Positions 15,366-39,378 of a DNA stretch of 64,000 nt are shown here, piece by piece (positions within the stretch are counted from its first letter, which is position 1; every line of letters begins with the position of its first letter). Origin of the DNA: Mumia xiangluensis (GTDB lineage: Bacteria > Actinomycetota > Actinomycetes > Propionibacteriales > Nocardioidaceae); assembly GCF_010994095.1 (NCBI RefSeq), contig NZ_WJYO01000005.1:62001-126000 (forward strand), in the 5' to 3' direction. The notes beneath the pieces are model-generated. The model was given only the letters and a program-made list of their open reading frames with translations, was not told where the DNA came from and did no database searches. Both the position numbers and the translations under genes were made by a program.

Positions 15366-16038
15366 CCGGGTCGTCGTGCAACGTGACGGCGAGGCGGTCG
15401 GCGTCGGCGTCGTACGCGAGCGTGACGTCGATGCTGCGGGTCAGCGTCGGGTCGTCGCCGCCGGCGGACGCATCGCCGTACCCACGGGCGACGTCGCGCA
15501 GCGTGACCGTCGCCGGCCCGACCGGATCGTTGTCCGGCCACTCCTCGATCACGCGCTGGGCGATCCCCGTCAGCACCGCGTCGACCATCGGCAGCGCGGC
15601 GTCGCCCGTGTCGGCGACGTACAGCTCGGGAAGCCCGAAGCGTGCCAGACCGTGGGTCGCGGTGGTCGTCTCTTCGGGCCGCTCCAGCACGAACCACTCG
15701 CCGGCCCGCAGGACGTCGGGGTGCGGCCCCTGCGGACCGAGGAGGCGTGGCACCGCGGCGTCGACGACGACACCGACGTGCTCGGCCGCGAGCGCACGTG
15801 CTGCCGCCTGCGTCTGCCGCTGCAGCGTGAGCGCGTCGCTCAGGTCGCCCTCCGCCGACACCGCCGTCGCGTAGGTCAGAGACTCGGCGAAGCGTACGGC
15901 CTTGGGGCTCGACCCCCGAGCCAGCAGCAGGCTCGGCGGAGGCACCGGGGGAGCGGGCAGGTCGGACTCGATCGGCTCGTCGGTGAGGACGACGTACAGG
16001 GCGGCGACCGTGCGGGGCACCGGGACCGGGCGGGTCAC
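15343..16038 (-). CDS. Hypothetical protein, coupled to MDR gene
   Basis: 231 residues from GTG 16038, which overlaps the MDR stop (GTGA). The sequence is soluble, with no signal peptide or membrane helix. Recognisable stretches are VAALYVVLTDEPIE near the start and LARFGLPELYVADTGDAALPMVDAVLTGI centrally. The layout resembles uncharacterised actinobacterial proteins of the suppressor-of-fused/DUF4261 type, but I cannot assign it. Its 3' end overlaps the FAD gene by 23 bp on the opposite strand. Confidence 0.65.
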   Translation of the reverse strand: MTRPVPVPRTVAALYVVLTDEPIESDLPAPPVPPPSLLLARGSSPKAVRFAESLTYATAVSAEGDLSDALTLQRQTQAAARALAAEHVGVVVDAAVPRLLGPQGPHPDVLRAGEWFVLERPEETTTATHGLARFGLPELYVADTGDAALPMVDAVLTGIAQRVIEEWPDNDPVGPATVTLRDVARGYGDASAGGDDPTLTRSIDVTLAYDADADRLAVTLHDDPATALFAP

Positions 16039-17093
16039 GGGTTGGTCGGGTCCGCGCCGACCTGCACCACGAGCTTGCCGAAGTTCGTGCCGCGCAGCAT
16101 GCCGAGGAATGCCTCGGGCGCCTTCTCGAGGCCGTCGACGACATCCTCGCGGTAGCGGACGCGGCCGTCGGCGATCCAACCCGCCATGTCATCCTGGAAC
16201 TGGCGGTAGTGAGCCTTCACGAACTCGCGCTGGATGAAGCCGCGGACGGTGAGGCTGCGCGTGAGGATGCGGCTCAGCAGCGCGGGTGAGCGGTCCGGGC
16301 CGTCCGGGAGCCTGGTGGCGTTGTACTGGGAGATCAGGCCGCACAGCGGGATGCGGCCGAACTCGTTCATCCGGGGGAGGACCGCGTCGAAGACGGCGCC
16401 GCCGACGTTCTCGAAGTAGACGTCGATGCCCTCGGGCGTGGCCGCCGCCAGCTCGTCGACGAAGTCGGGGGAGCGGTGGTCGAGCGCGACGTCGAAGCCG
16501 AGCTCGTCCTTCACGTAGGCGACCTTCTCCGGGCCCCCGGCGATGCCGACGGCGCGGGCGCCCTTGATCTGCGCGATCTGCCCGACCGCGGAGCCGACCG
16601 GACCGGCAGCTGCCGCGACGACGACCGTCTCGGTCGGCTGAGGACGCCCGATCTCGAGCAGACCGGCGTACGCGGTGAAGCCAGGCATGCCGAGGACGCC
16701 GAGGGCCGTCGACAAGGGAGCGCGCGTCGGGTCCAAGCGGCGCACCGCCTTCGCGTGCACCACGGCGTACTCCTGCCACCCGGTAAGGGCGAGGACGACG
16801 TCGCCGACCGCGACGAGATCGCTGTTGGACGCCACCACCTCCGAGACGGTGCCGCCGGTCATCACACCGCCGACGGGGACGGGGGCGTCGTACGACTCGG
16901 CGTCCGACATGCGGCCACGCATGTAGGGGTCGAGGGACAGGTAGATGGTCCTCAGCAGGACCTCGTCCGGTCCGGGCTCCGGGACGGCGGTGCGCTCGAG
17001 GGTGAAGTTGTCGGGCGTCGGCTCGCCGTGCGGCCGGCTCGCCAGGAGGACGCTCAGGTGGGTCGTGGGGGCCGGGGCTGCGGTGGAAGTCAT
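16035..17093 (-). CDS. MDR-family NADP-dependent oxidoreductase (CurA-like), copy 2
   Basis: 352 residues. N-terminal domain IYLSLDPYMRGRM, then LGVLGMPGFTAYAGLLEIGRP, cofactor loop VVVAAAAGPVGSAVGQIAQIKGARAVGIAGG, and FENVGGAVFDAVLPRMNEFGRIPLCGLISQYN. These match zinc-free reductases acting on alpha,beta-unsaturated ketones and aldehydes. It is clearly closer to the canonical family than copy 1 at 11807-12817. The gene starts next to the cimA leader on the other strand. Confidence 0.92.
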   Translation of the reverse strand: MTSTAAPAPTTHLSVLLASRPHGEPTPDNFTLERTAVPEPGPDEVLLRTIYLSLDPYMRGRMSDAESYDAPVPVGGVMTGGTVSEVVASNSDLVAVGDVVLALTGWQEYAVVHAKAVRRLDPTRAPLSTALGVLGMPGFTAYAGLLEIGRPQPTETVVVAAAAGPVGSAVGQIAQIKGARAVGIAGGPEKVAYVKDELGFDVALDHRSPDFVDELAAATPEGIDVYFENVGGAVFDAVLPRMNEFGRIPLCGLISQYNATRLPDGPDRSPALLSRILTRSLTVRGFIQREFVKAHYRQFQDDMAGWIADGRVRYREDVVDGLEKAPEAFLGMLRGTNFGKLVVQVGADPTNP

Positions 17094-17106
17094 GGTCGGG
17101 CCAGTC

Positions 17107-17112
17107 TAAGGT
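17107..17112 (+). promoter_or_regulatory. -10 element for the cimA leader
   Basis: TAAGGT ends 6 nt before ATG 17119, so transcription would begin at or next to the leader start codon (a leaderless leader peptide). No convincing -35 is visible. Confidence 0.5.
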
Positions 17113-17118
17113 GGGCGT

Positions 17119-17160
17119 ATGCACCGCGTGACCGACGTCATCATTAGTCAGCGCGTCTGA
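17119..17160 (+). CDS. cimA leader peptide, Val/Ile-rich
   Basis: Thirteen codons ending TGA 17158-17160 encode MHRVTDVIISQRV. Five of thirteen residues are Val or Ile (GTG, GTC, ATC, ATT, GTC), with a clustered Val-Ile-Ile run. The last codons form the 5' arm of the first leader hairpin. A factor-independent terminator follows at 17186-17214 and cimA starts at 17258. This is the layout of ribosome-mediated attenuation, here sensing isoleucine and valine supply. Confidence 0.75.
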   Translation: MHRVTDVIISQRV

Positions 17161-17214
17161 CCCACCTCCCGGGTCCGACGCGCCAGCCTCTCGTATCCCC
17201 GAGGGGCATTTTTT
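17151..17214 (+). terminator. cimA attenuator with competing antiterminator
   Basis: Hairpin 1: GCGCGTC (17151-17157) with GACGCGC (17177-17183), extended by GACCC/GGGTC. Terminator: GCCTCTCG (17186-17193) with CGAGGGGC (17200-17207), then six T (17209-17214). Antiterminator: 17165-17173 can pair with 17198-17206 (eight pairs, one mismatch), which needs hairpin 1 open and removes the terminator 3' arm. A ribosome stalled on the Val-Ile-Ile codons would cover the 5' arm of hairpin 1 and favour readthrough. Confidence 0.8.
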
Positions 17215-17257
17215 ATGTCCGGGAGGACCCGACGCCGCACCCGAGCAGGAGATGACG

Positions 17258-18844
17258 ATGACGACCGATCCGACCTTCCACGTGTACGACACCACGCTGC
17301 GCGACGGCGCGCAGCAGGAGGGGCTGAACCTCTCCGTCGCCGACAAGCTGGTGATCTCGCGCCACCTCGACGACCTCGGCGTCGGCTACATCGAGGGCGG
17401 CTGGCCGGGCTCCAACCCGAAGGACACCGAGTTCTTCGCCCGCGCCCGTACCGAGCTGACGCTGAAGCACGCGACCCTGGCGGCGTTCGGGGCCACGCGG
17501 CGGGCCGGCTCGAACGCCGCCGACGACCCGCTCGTCGCCGCGCTGCGCGACTCCGGGGCGTCGGTCGTCACCCTGGTCGCGAAGAGCCACGACCGCCACG
17601 TCGAGCTGGCGCTGCGGACCACGCTGGAGGAGAACCTCGCGATGGTCCGTGACACCGTCGAGTACCTGCGCGAGCACGGGCAGCGCGTGTTCGTGGACTG
17701 CGAGCACTTCTTCGACGGCTATCGCCGCAACCGTGACTACGCGCTCGACGTCGTCCGTACGGCCGCCGAGGCCGGAGCCGAGGTCGTCATCCTGTGCGAC
17801 ACCAACGGCGGGATGCTTCCGCACTGGGTCGGCGAGATCGTCGCCGACGTCGCCGCCTCCACCGGCGCACGCCTCGGCATCCACGCGCACAACGACACCG
17901 GCTGCGCGGTCGCCAACTCCGTCGCCGCCGTCCAGGCCGGTGCGACGCACCTTCAGGGATGCATCAACGGGTACGGCGAGCGCACCGGCAACGCCGACCT
18001 GATCGCCTGCGTCGCGAACCTCGAGCTGAAGCTGGGCCAGAAGGTGATGCCGACGGGCGCGCTGCGCGAGGCCAGCCGCATCGCGCACGCCGTCGCGGAG
18101 GTCACGAACTACCCGCCCGCCGCGCGGCAGCCGTACACCGGTGTCTCGGCCTTCGCGCACAAGGCCGGCCTGCACGCCAGCGCCATCCGGGTCGATCCCG
18201 ACCTCTACCAGCACATCGATCCCGAGCTGGTCGGCAACGACATGCGGCTGCTCGTCTCCGAGATGGCGGGGCGGGCCACGATCGAGCTCAAGGGCAAGGA
18301 GCTCGGGTTCGACCTGAGCGGCGACGCCGAGACCCTCGCGCTGGTGACCGACGTGGTCAAGGAGCGCGAGCAGGCGGGCTACACGTTCGAGGCCGCCGAC
18401 GCCTCGTTCGAGCTGCTGCTCGCCGAGATGGTCGAGGGCGAGCGGCCGTCGTACTTCGACGTCCAGTCGTGGCGTGTCATCACCGAGTCGAGCCAGGCCG
18501 CGGGCGAGGAAGCCCAGTCGGAGGCCACGCTGAAGATCGTGGCCGGAGGGCAGCGCTATGTCGTGACCGGTGAGGGCAACGGCCCGGTCTCGGCGCTCGA
18601 CCACGCGCTTCGCCAGGCGATCGAGCGGGCGTTCCCGGACGTCGAGACCTTCGGCCTGAACGACTACCGGGTGCGGATCCTCAACGAGTCCGGCGGCACC
18701 GACGCCCGCATCAGAGTCATGATCGGCACGACCGACGGCGTCGACACGTGGACCACGGTCGGCGTCGGGCACAACATCGTCGAGGCGTCGTGGGAGGCGC
18801 TGCTCGACGCGTTCACCTACGGCCTCCGCCGCCACCGCCCCTGA
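17258..18844 (+). CDS. cimA: Citramalate synthase (alpha-IPM/homocitrate synthase family)
   Basis: 528 residues. HMGL-like TIM barrel starting VYDTTLRDGAQQEGLNLS, with metal ligands in HAHNDTGCAVANS and GYGERTGNADL, then HKAGLHASA. The C-terminal LeuA-type regulatory domain includes FGLNDYRVRILNESGGTDARIRV. The set matches the CimA subfamily, which condenses acetyl-CoA with pyruvate to open a threonine-independent route to isoleucine. Two ATGs lie six bases apart; CAGGAG (17246-17251) suits 17258 better than 17252. The Val/Ile leader and attenuator upstream agree with this role. Confidence 0.92.
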   Translation: MTTDPTFHVYDTTLRDGAQQEGLNLSVADKLVISRHLDDLGVGYIEGGWPGSNPKDTEFFARARTELTLKHATLAAFGATRRAGSNAADDPLVAALRDSGASVVTLVAKSHDRHVELALRTTLEENLAMVRDTVEYLREHGQRVFVDCEHFFDGYRRNRDYALDVVRTAAEAGAEVVILCDTNGGMLPHWVGEIVADVAASTGARLGIHAHNDTGCAVANSVAAVQAGATHLQGCINGYGERTGNADLIACVANLELKLGQKVMPTGALREASRIAHAVAEVTNYPPAARQPYTGVSAFAHKAGLHASAIRVDPDLYQHIDPELVGNDMRLLVSEMAGRATIELKGKELGFDLSGDAETLALVTDVVKEREQAGYTFEAADASFELLLAEMVEGERPSYFDVQSWRVITESSQAAGEEAQSEATLKIVAGGQRYVVTGEGNGPVSALDHALRQAIERAFPDVETFGLNDYRVRILNESGGTDARIRVMIGTTDGVDTWTTVGVGHNIVEASWEALLDAFTYGLRRHRP

Positions 18845-39187: not shown

Positions 39188-39378
39188 AGCGGCCGAATCT
39201 ATCAGCGGCGGCAAGACCCTCGGAAGCGTCGCGTGCCCGATGGTCCATAACGGTTCGGGCAGACCCATGGACGGATATGTCTTCCTCGGCAACAATAGGC
39301 GCAGGCCCGGCCCCGGGTCGTCTCCACTTCACTCGGATCGTGCGGCACGTTCCTGCCGCTGAAGGGATGTAGTACGCC

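Follow-up and report, generated by a model that had tools for sequence, protein, structure and literature searches.

The window (the whole stretch of DNA that was analysed, 64,000 nucleotides of Mumia xiangluensis) was found to contain a citramalate synthase gene, cimA, preceded by a -10-like hexamer, a short leader ORF, a hairpin (hairpin 1, H1) and an intrinsic terminator hairpin followed by a T tract (Table 1). The cimA protein scored 638.6 bits against TIGR00977, for which the cut-off is 450. Two in-frame ATG codons were present at the 5′ end of cimA, at 17252 and 17258, and AGGAG was found at 17247-17251, six nucleotides before the second; because of this AGGAG the second ATG suits better and may be the start of the gene.

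The leader ORF, H1, the terminator and the six T were located where the original prediction had placed them, and the leader was confirmed to contain 13 codons, five of them for valine or isoleucine. Its ATG (17119) was found six nucleotides past the hexamer, as had been claimed for a -10 box, though the hexamer is only -10-like: no sigma-70-type promoter pair passed a scan of 17040-17260 and no -35 box was found, and the promoter was therefore assigned from the hexamer alone. In the five other loci from the same genus, TAGAGT (four loci) or TAGGAT (one locus) was present at this distance. The leader ORF is probably leaderless, its start codon being predicted at or beside the transcript start. 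A divergent gene on the minus strand (16035-17093), belonging to the NADPH-dependent curcumin reductase family, was found to start 26 nt from the leader ORF, and because the two starts are so close, the promoters of this gene and of the leader must overlap.

The last isoleucine codon of the leader was ATT, beginning 8 nt before H1, and H1 itself was 33 nt long. The terminator hairpin contained 8 pairs, 6 of them G-C, followed by a single A (17208) before the six T, and was the sole terminator-like site in 17040-17260, where 0.1 was expected by chance. The fold of 17120-17220 was more stable than all of 200 shuffled sequences (-41.8 vs a mean of -27.1 kcal/mol, z -5.0), and both H1 and the terminator were present in the minimum-energy structure of the leader.

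No Rfam covariance model (T-box, riboswitch and leader families included) matched 17107-18844 at gathering scores, and nine element-bearing loci matched none at E<=1; a T-box or riboswitch identity was rejected on this ground. Elsewhere in the window, a TPP riboswitch was found at 1179-1270 on the plus strand (55.9 bits, gathering score 54.3), and an msiK RNA at 39316-39374 on the plus strand (49.9 bits, gathering score 33).

Table 1. Features of the cimA leader region, in window coordinates
Feature	Position	Strand	Basis
-10-like hexamer TAAGGT	17107-17112	+	sequence; same-distance hexamers in same-genus loci
Leader ORF MHRVTDVIISQRV*	17119-17160	+	sequence; in-frame Ile codon near H1
Val-Ile-Ile codons GTC ATC ATT	17137-17145	+	sequence; codon counts
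Hairpin 1 (H1), basal stem GCGCGUC/GACGCGC	17151-17183	+	fold; covariation; position
Intrinsic terminator hairpin, 2 nt after H1	17186-17207	+	fold; covariation; terminator scan
Six-T tract of the terminator	17209-17214	+	sequence; terminator scan
cimA, citramalate synthase, proposed regulated gene	17252-18844	+	TIGR00977; sequence

Conservation of the element upstream of cimA

In a protein search of 58 genomes (the window's own and its relatives), 47 were found to contain a cimA-grade match (E<=2.4e-147). A covariance model, R1, was built from nine of the leaders, and its matches, compared with the genes by coordinates, placed the element immediately before cimA in 43 of the 47 loci; it was absent in the R1 search from G011, G021, G023 and G024. 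Among the first cimA loci inspected, 27 of 30 contained the element. The class was sampled with 118 spread genomes, 92 of which contained cimA at E<=1e-100, with a readable 5′ end in 90. The wider model R2 found the element before 68 of these 90 genes (E<=2.8e-5), two of the 90 loci (L004 and L016) being also among the sequences behind R2, and one further match, which was antisense, was dropped. About nine of the 22 class cimA genes without the element closely trail, as judged by eye, the end of another reading frame that resembles ilvE. With the gene ignored and a limit of E<=0.01, matches to R2 were present in 211 of the 296 class genomes.

For measurements of geometry a set of 133 elements was used, located before cimA (120), leuS (6), ilvB (3), leuA (1), ilvA (1) and a short unknown gene (2). 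The elements are related and not independent; 43 were obtained through the protein search and 90 through covariance models in which two closely spaced hairpins are already built in. The model-found class loci comprised 90 taken among the matches listed, including five repeats, and 82 of the other 85 were read. Gene names in the set were assigned by tblastn against three references, by eye, and by NCBIfam for seven partial proteins. The leader ORFs were mostly chosen by script, those of L043 and L082 being corrected by hand for the ribosome-terminator distances.

Covariation of H1 and the terminator

In an alignment of 44 distinct rows (from 46 matches, three of them before leuS), 57 cells were found to be changed on both sides of a pair, vs 16.4 after shuffling. 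The class alignment of 69 rows, one of which was a false antisense match, contained 91 such cells vs 23.2 after shuffling, and 0-11 when the partners were slid. The changes in the class rows were distributed over 3 pairs of H1 and 6 pairs of the terminator, and the terminator helix was 98.1% paired. Two stretches, GCGC at the base of H1 and CC.C in the terminator 5′ arm, hardly vary and are uninformative on pairing. Absence of conservation of the leader ORF or of compensatory changes in the stems had been named in advance as evidence against the original prediction; conservation was found, together with compensatory changes in both H1 and the terminator. Among the relatives, the 5′ arm of the terminator contained a nearly invariant CCUCUCG (window 17187-17193) and the 3′ arm varied, with G-U and A-U changes.

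Arrangement of the element and choice of the isoleucine codon

All 120 cimA elements, and all 68 elements of the class sample, contained an in-frame isoleucine codon before H1; in the class sample the nearest such codon always started 7-12 nt before H1. In the 43 elements of the relatives this distance was 7-9 nt, followed by a gap of 0-2 nt between H1 and the terminator. The gap in the class elements was 0 nt (56 elements), 1 nt (9) or 2 nt (3), and in the set of 133 it was 0 nt in 102, 1 nt in 27 and 2 nt in 4. The length of H1 ranged from 21 to 77 nt in the 133 elements and from 22 to 76 nt in the 68. Of 2660 shuffled H1 sequences, 496 also folded into a flush hairpin, which at this GC content is thus no rarity in itself, and the flush placement in 133 of 133 elements arises partly by construction because the same fold defined the ends of H1; the gap between H1 and the terminator is not set in this way. 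The loops of H1 in the 133 elements were rich in C and A (0.47 and 0.27) and poor in G and U (G 0.12).

Counted in frame, the last isoleucine codon was ATT in 93 of 120 cimA leaders and in 52 of 68 class leaders. In the coding stretches of cimA from 119 loci, ATT accounted for 65 of 1211 isoleucine codons, and the cimA gene of the window contained none among its 18. A rare and presumably slowly read ATT at the sensing place fits attenuation, as would be expected if slow decoding matters.

Presence of the element before other genes

The same layout was found to precede some leuS, ilvB, leuA and ilvA genes, with the codons at the sensing place being those for leucine (leuS and leuA), valine or leucine (ilvB) and isoleucine (ilvA). 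The genome of the window contained two further matches, one before leuS (E 2.0e-5) and a weaker one before ilvB (E 0.005). The leuS element (L160; G000:C2:561342-561418, minus strand) contained the leader MYGEHLIEPR* with CTT ATC before H1; the weak ilvB match (L161; G000:C5:59162-59248) was located 2.8 kb left of the window and contained the leader VRNILLVRH*, read by eye. Element L154, with the leader VQLHLMAIT*, was located before an ilvA-like threonine ammonia-lyase gene, and element L149, with the leader MKHLLLIESARH*, before a 2-isopropylmalate synthase gene. In L112 and L134 the element, with an isoleucine-rich leader, was found before a short gene that appeared ACT-domain-like by eye only; one of the two proteins was scanned and gave no NCBIfam match.

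Position of the ribosome relative to H1

The footprint of the E. coli ribosome is given as about 10 nt beyond the A site (PMC4824070), and the ribosome was accordingly taken here to cover 12 nt, counted from the first base in the A site, a value borrowed from E. coli. With the A site on ATC or ATT, the footprint reached 17151 or 17154, which corresponds to 1 or 4 nt of H1. Stalling at the Val-Ile-Ile codons had been predicted to cover the 5′ arm of H1, and this was not supported by the small overlap. A ribosome at the stop codon covered 19 nt of H1 in the window and masked at least 5 nt of H1 in 133 of 133 elements (automatic ORF choice). By footprint, stalling on isoleucine would keep H1 and finishing the peptide would open it, an order of events that is the reverse of the earlier scheme because the footprint spares H1 when the ribosome is stalled.

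Search for a classical antiterminator

Positions 17165-17173 had been predicted to pair with 17198-17206 as an antiterminator once H1 was open. Eight of the nine positions were found to pair in the window, though with a C-A mismatch (17169/17202) and a G-U pair that the prediction had not mentioned. In 27 aligned leaders, 51.3% of the cells paired vs 52.6% after shuffling. Duplex energies compared with shuffled loops gave p 0.2-0.9 in the window and five same-genus relatives, and in folds with the 5′ arm of H1 masked the pairing was found only in the window (L004) and its closest relative (L005). Pair counts, duplex energies and masked folds together led to its rejection as a conserved pairing.

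Equilibrium folds of the whole leader with the footprint masked were dropped as evidence, since the stalled E. coli trpL control kept its terminator at 0.97-0.98 and the test is therefore blind to a classical antiterminator. A nascent test was used instead, in which the RNA extends up to the terminator loop and the energy cost of freeing the 5′ arm of the terminator is calculated. For trpL this cost was 8.3-9.3 kcal when stalled vs 0.0 at the stop codon. The test is weak for hisL, as its stalled values (2.8-7.1 kcal) and stop value (3.7 kcal) separate poorly. In the 133 elements the median cost was 0.1 kcal at the penultimate codon, 2.0 kcal at the last codon and 2.5 kcal at the stop codon, and a cost of at least 4 kcal was found in 0, 2 and 20 elements, respectively. 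The two stalled exceptions were L053 and L055 (5.0 and 5.5 kcal), and the 20 elements at the stop codon run, in this model, in the wrong direction for a classical switch. Sequestration of the terminator 5′ arm above 0.8 in the stalled state was found in 0 of 133 elements, with nested pairs only being considered, and no antiterminator of the trp/his type sharing a strand of the terminator was found in the 133 elements by the nascent test.

Further candidates were rejected. H1 loops paired no better with their own terminators (-3.15 kcal) than with swapped partners (-3.30 kcal), and 1845 of 2000 permutations equalled or bettered the true combination. Loop and terminator thus showed no coevolution, which speaks against kissing between them and against the arrangement of Corynebacterium ilvB-II, where the terminator 3′ arm is bound by the P1 loop. 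No overlap in base pairs between H1 and the terminator was seen by eye, with the gap at 0-2 nt. A second reading frame or a ribosome-binding role for the GGGAGG of the terminator 3′ arm was dismissed because start codons, inspected by eye, were not in a conserved frame.

A classical antiterminator might still have escaped these tests as a pseudoknot, as a lineage-specific pairing or as a pairing between loop and terminator like that of Corynebacterium ilvB-II. The eight pairing positions in the window speak for it, as do the C-rich H1 loops facing a G-rich terminator 3′ arm, the P1-loop to P2a pairing proposed for ilvB (PMC10272879), and p values of 0.01 for duplexes between the loop or inner part of H1 and the terminator 3′ arm in 2 of 27 leaders (L015 and L032). 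The predicted pairing, however, did not exceed its shuffled control, the swapped loops paired as well as the own ones, and no stalled 5′ arm in the set was sequestered above 0.8, so that we regard this explanation as unlikely. RNAfold is limited to nested pairing, and the missing antiterminator could come from a pseudoknot or a protein.

Distance between the ribosome and the terminator

The distance between the ribosome and the terminator was counted in unpaired nucleotides only, from the A site or the stop codon to the terminator. In the 133 elements it was 4-11 nt (median 6) with the ribosome stalled and H1 folded, 25-85 nt with the ribosome stalled and H1 open, and 17-58 nt (median 27) with the ribosome at the stop codon and H1 open, the lowest value in the other set being 16. 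The stalled distance with H1 folded was smaller than the stop-codon distance in 133 of 133 elements, with no overlap between the two ranges; for the window the three values were 7, 40 and 25 nt, respectively. With both hairpins folded, 18-27 nt were found between the P site and the RNA 3′ end, a range that leaves out L082 (49 nt, due to a wrong ORF choice).

As yardsticks, the E. coli terminator tR2 is described as almost silent a few nucleotides after a stop codon and as fully active beyond about 27-30 nt, with termination of 0.12 at 17 nt and 0.8 at 18 nt in two series, and its silencing is abolished when translation is uncoupled (PMC4824070). A collided ribosome-polymerase complex is reported with 28 nt between the P site and the RNA 3′ end (PMC11711091). 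A pyrBI-like proximity geometry, measured with these E. coli yardsticks, fits 133 of 133 elements only with H1 folded in the stalled state. Termination at the stop codon need not be full, because the distances there reach down to 17 (16) nt, where the strength of tR2 varied with the sequence.

Proposed mechanism and alternative explanations

The best reading of the locus is ribosome-mediated attenuation of cimA by isoleucine, to which we give a probability of about 0.93, because an isoleucine-rich in-frame leader and a terminator before cimA are accompanied by conservation and covariation of H1 and the terminator. Isoleucine attenuation thus survives from the original prediction, although the antiterminator and the order of stalling do not. 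The gene would be turned up when charged Ile-tRNA is short.

Since the stalled distances fall below the yardsticks of tR2 and of the collided complex, H1 is proposed to take up slack, acting as a slack remover without pairing to the terminator as an antiterminator would. This role, which is drawn from the geometry and the E. coli distances, is put forward tentatively, at slightly less than even odds. When isoleucine is plentiful, the ribosome would run to the stop codon, cover the 5′ arm of H1 and open it, and the terminator would be far enough from the ribosome to fold, ending transcription. When isoleucine is short, the ribosome would stall on the isoleucine codons, its leading edge having just reached the foot of H1, and H1 would fold and take up the intervening RNA. 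Few nucleotides would then be left between the stalled ribosome and the terminator, which would be unable to close between ribosome and polymerase, and cimA would be transcribed. With no ribosome, both hairpins would fold and transcription would end. The same design may be widespread in Actinobacteria, with a hairpin of free length and sequence placed exactly between the edge of a ribosome stalled on isoleucine, leucine or valine codons and the base of the terminator, also before some leuS, ilvB, leuA and ilvA genes; this extension is held a shade more tentatively than the role of H1 itself.

Alternatively, H1 alone, lying flush with the terminator, could block the terminator in the exit channel of the polymerase, the ribosome deciding only whether H1 is present. 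The gap of 0-2 nt in 133 of 133 and 68 of 68 elements is compatible with this, and so is the finding that H1 is spared by the stalled ribosome and masked by the one at the stop codon. Both hairpins nevertheless fold together in the minimum-energy structure, and the gene would be on without translation, which is unusual for an attenuator; this explanation is therefore judged unlikely as well, and marginally more so than an overlooked antiterminator.

Another possibility is that H1 is mainly a pause hairpin, at which the ribosome catches up with the polymerase, read-through being achieved by another route. The distance from the 3′ end of H1 to the conserved CUCUCGU/C was 10-11 nt in the first 27 leaders, and 10-11 nt is the spacing of hairpin-stabilised pauses. 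Such a pause would account for the invariant CCUCUCG, an arm that in sequence terms is conserved beyond the needs of the terminator and whose near-invariance the slack-removal model leaves aside. Against a pausing role, the spacing was counted by eye only, the G that usually follows such a pause is missing, and read-through under starvation is not accounted for by the pause itself; as the main function it is improbable, and a pause could act together with slack removal. That the element is not an isoleucine regulator of cimA at all, serving simply to terminate an antisense or upstream transcript or being conserved for some other cause, is suggested by the divergent gene starting at 17093 on the other strand, and is made very improbable by the conserved in-frame isoleucine codons, the ATT enrichment, the covariation and the placement before branched-chain amino acid genes.

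Comparison with known attenuators

Attenuators of ilvB, leuS, trp and leuA are known in Actinobacteria (Seliverstov 2005, PMC1262725; S. lividans list, PMC8079986). The present elements resemble them in containing a short, often leaderless peptide ORF with codons for the regulating amino acid, a hairpin and a U-tailed terminator, and in being found before leuS and ilvB. Unlike in those systems, the gene here is cimA, which neither source names in its accessible text, and a fixed spacing between codon, H1 and terminator was found here that is not described in those portions for actinobacterial attenuators. The same text of PMC1262725 states that genes belonging to other amino acid pathways had no conserved structures upstream. 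No report of a cimA attenuator was found in the literature searched, which included the available part of PMC2965389 and had subscription papers mostly outside it.

As in ilvB1 of M. tuberculosis (PMC13236596), a stall would let an upstream structure form and a ribosome at the stop codon would mask that structure; in ilvB1, mutation of the regulatory codons abolished induction. The anti-terminator of ilvB1 is described there as mutually exclusive with the terminator, whereas H1 and the terminator share no bases here. A leader peptide, adjacent hairpins and a terminator are also contained in the ilvBNC attenuators of Corynebacterium (PMC11857589, PMC10272879), but these are described with a three-base overlap of antiterminator and terminator or with pairing between the P1 loop and the terminator, and neither was found in the present elements.

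With the trp and his attenuators of E. coli the element shares a leader peptide, regulatory codons and a terminator; the strong stall-dependent sequestration of the terminator in trpL is absent from it. What was found is an in-frame leader with isoleucine codons and putative translation, and an intrinsic terminator between the leader ORF and the gene. The element is of a known kind and has a well-supported layout, but shows no sign of the defining antiterminator. The proposed action resembles terminator silencing of the pyrBI type, in which a ribosome close behind the polymerase blocks folding of the terminator directly (PMC4824070). Unlike in pyrBI, the distance would here be set by a hairpin together with a stalled ribosome. 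The pyrBI attenuator senses UTP through polymerase pausing.

Attenuation of cimA would extend amino-acid attenuation to the entry to the threonine-independent route to isoleucine. If slack removal is true, no competing pairing would be needed, and the switch would consist in the distance between two machines. Such a switch would be easy to evolve, because the identity of the hairpin would not matter, and could be tested and re-used with ease, and it would provide a common frame for the leaders of cimA, leuS and ilvB together with a covariance model that finds them.
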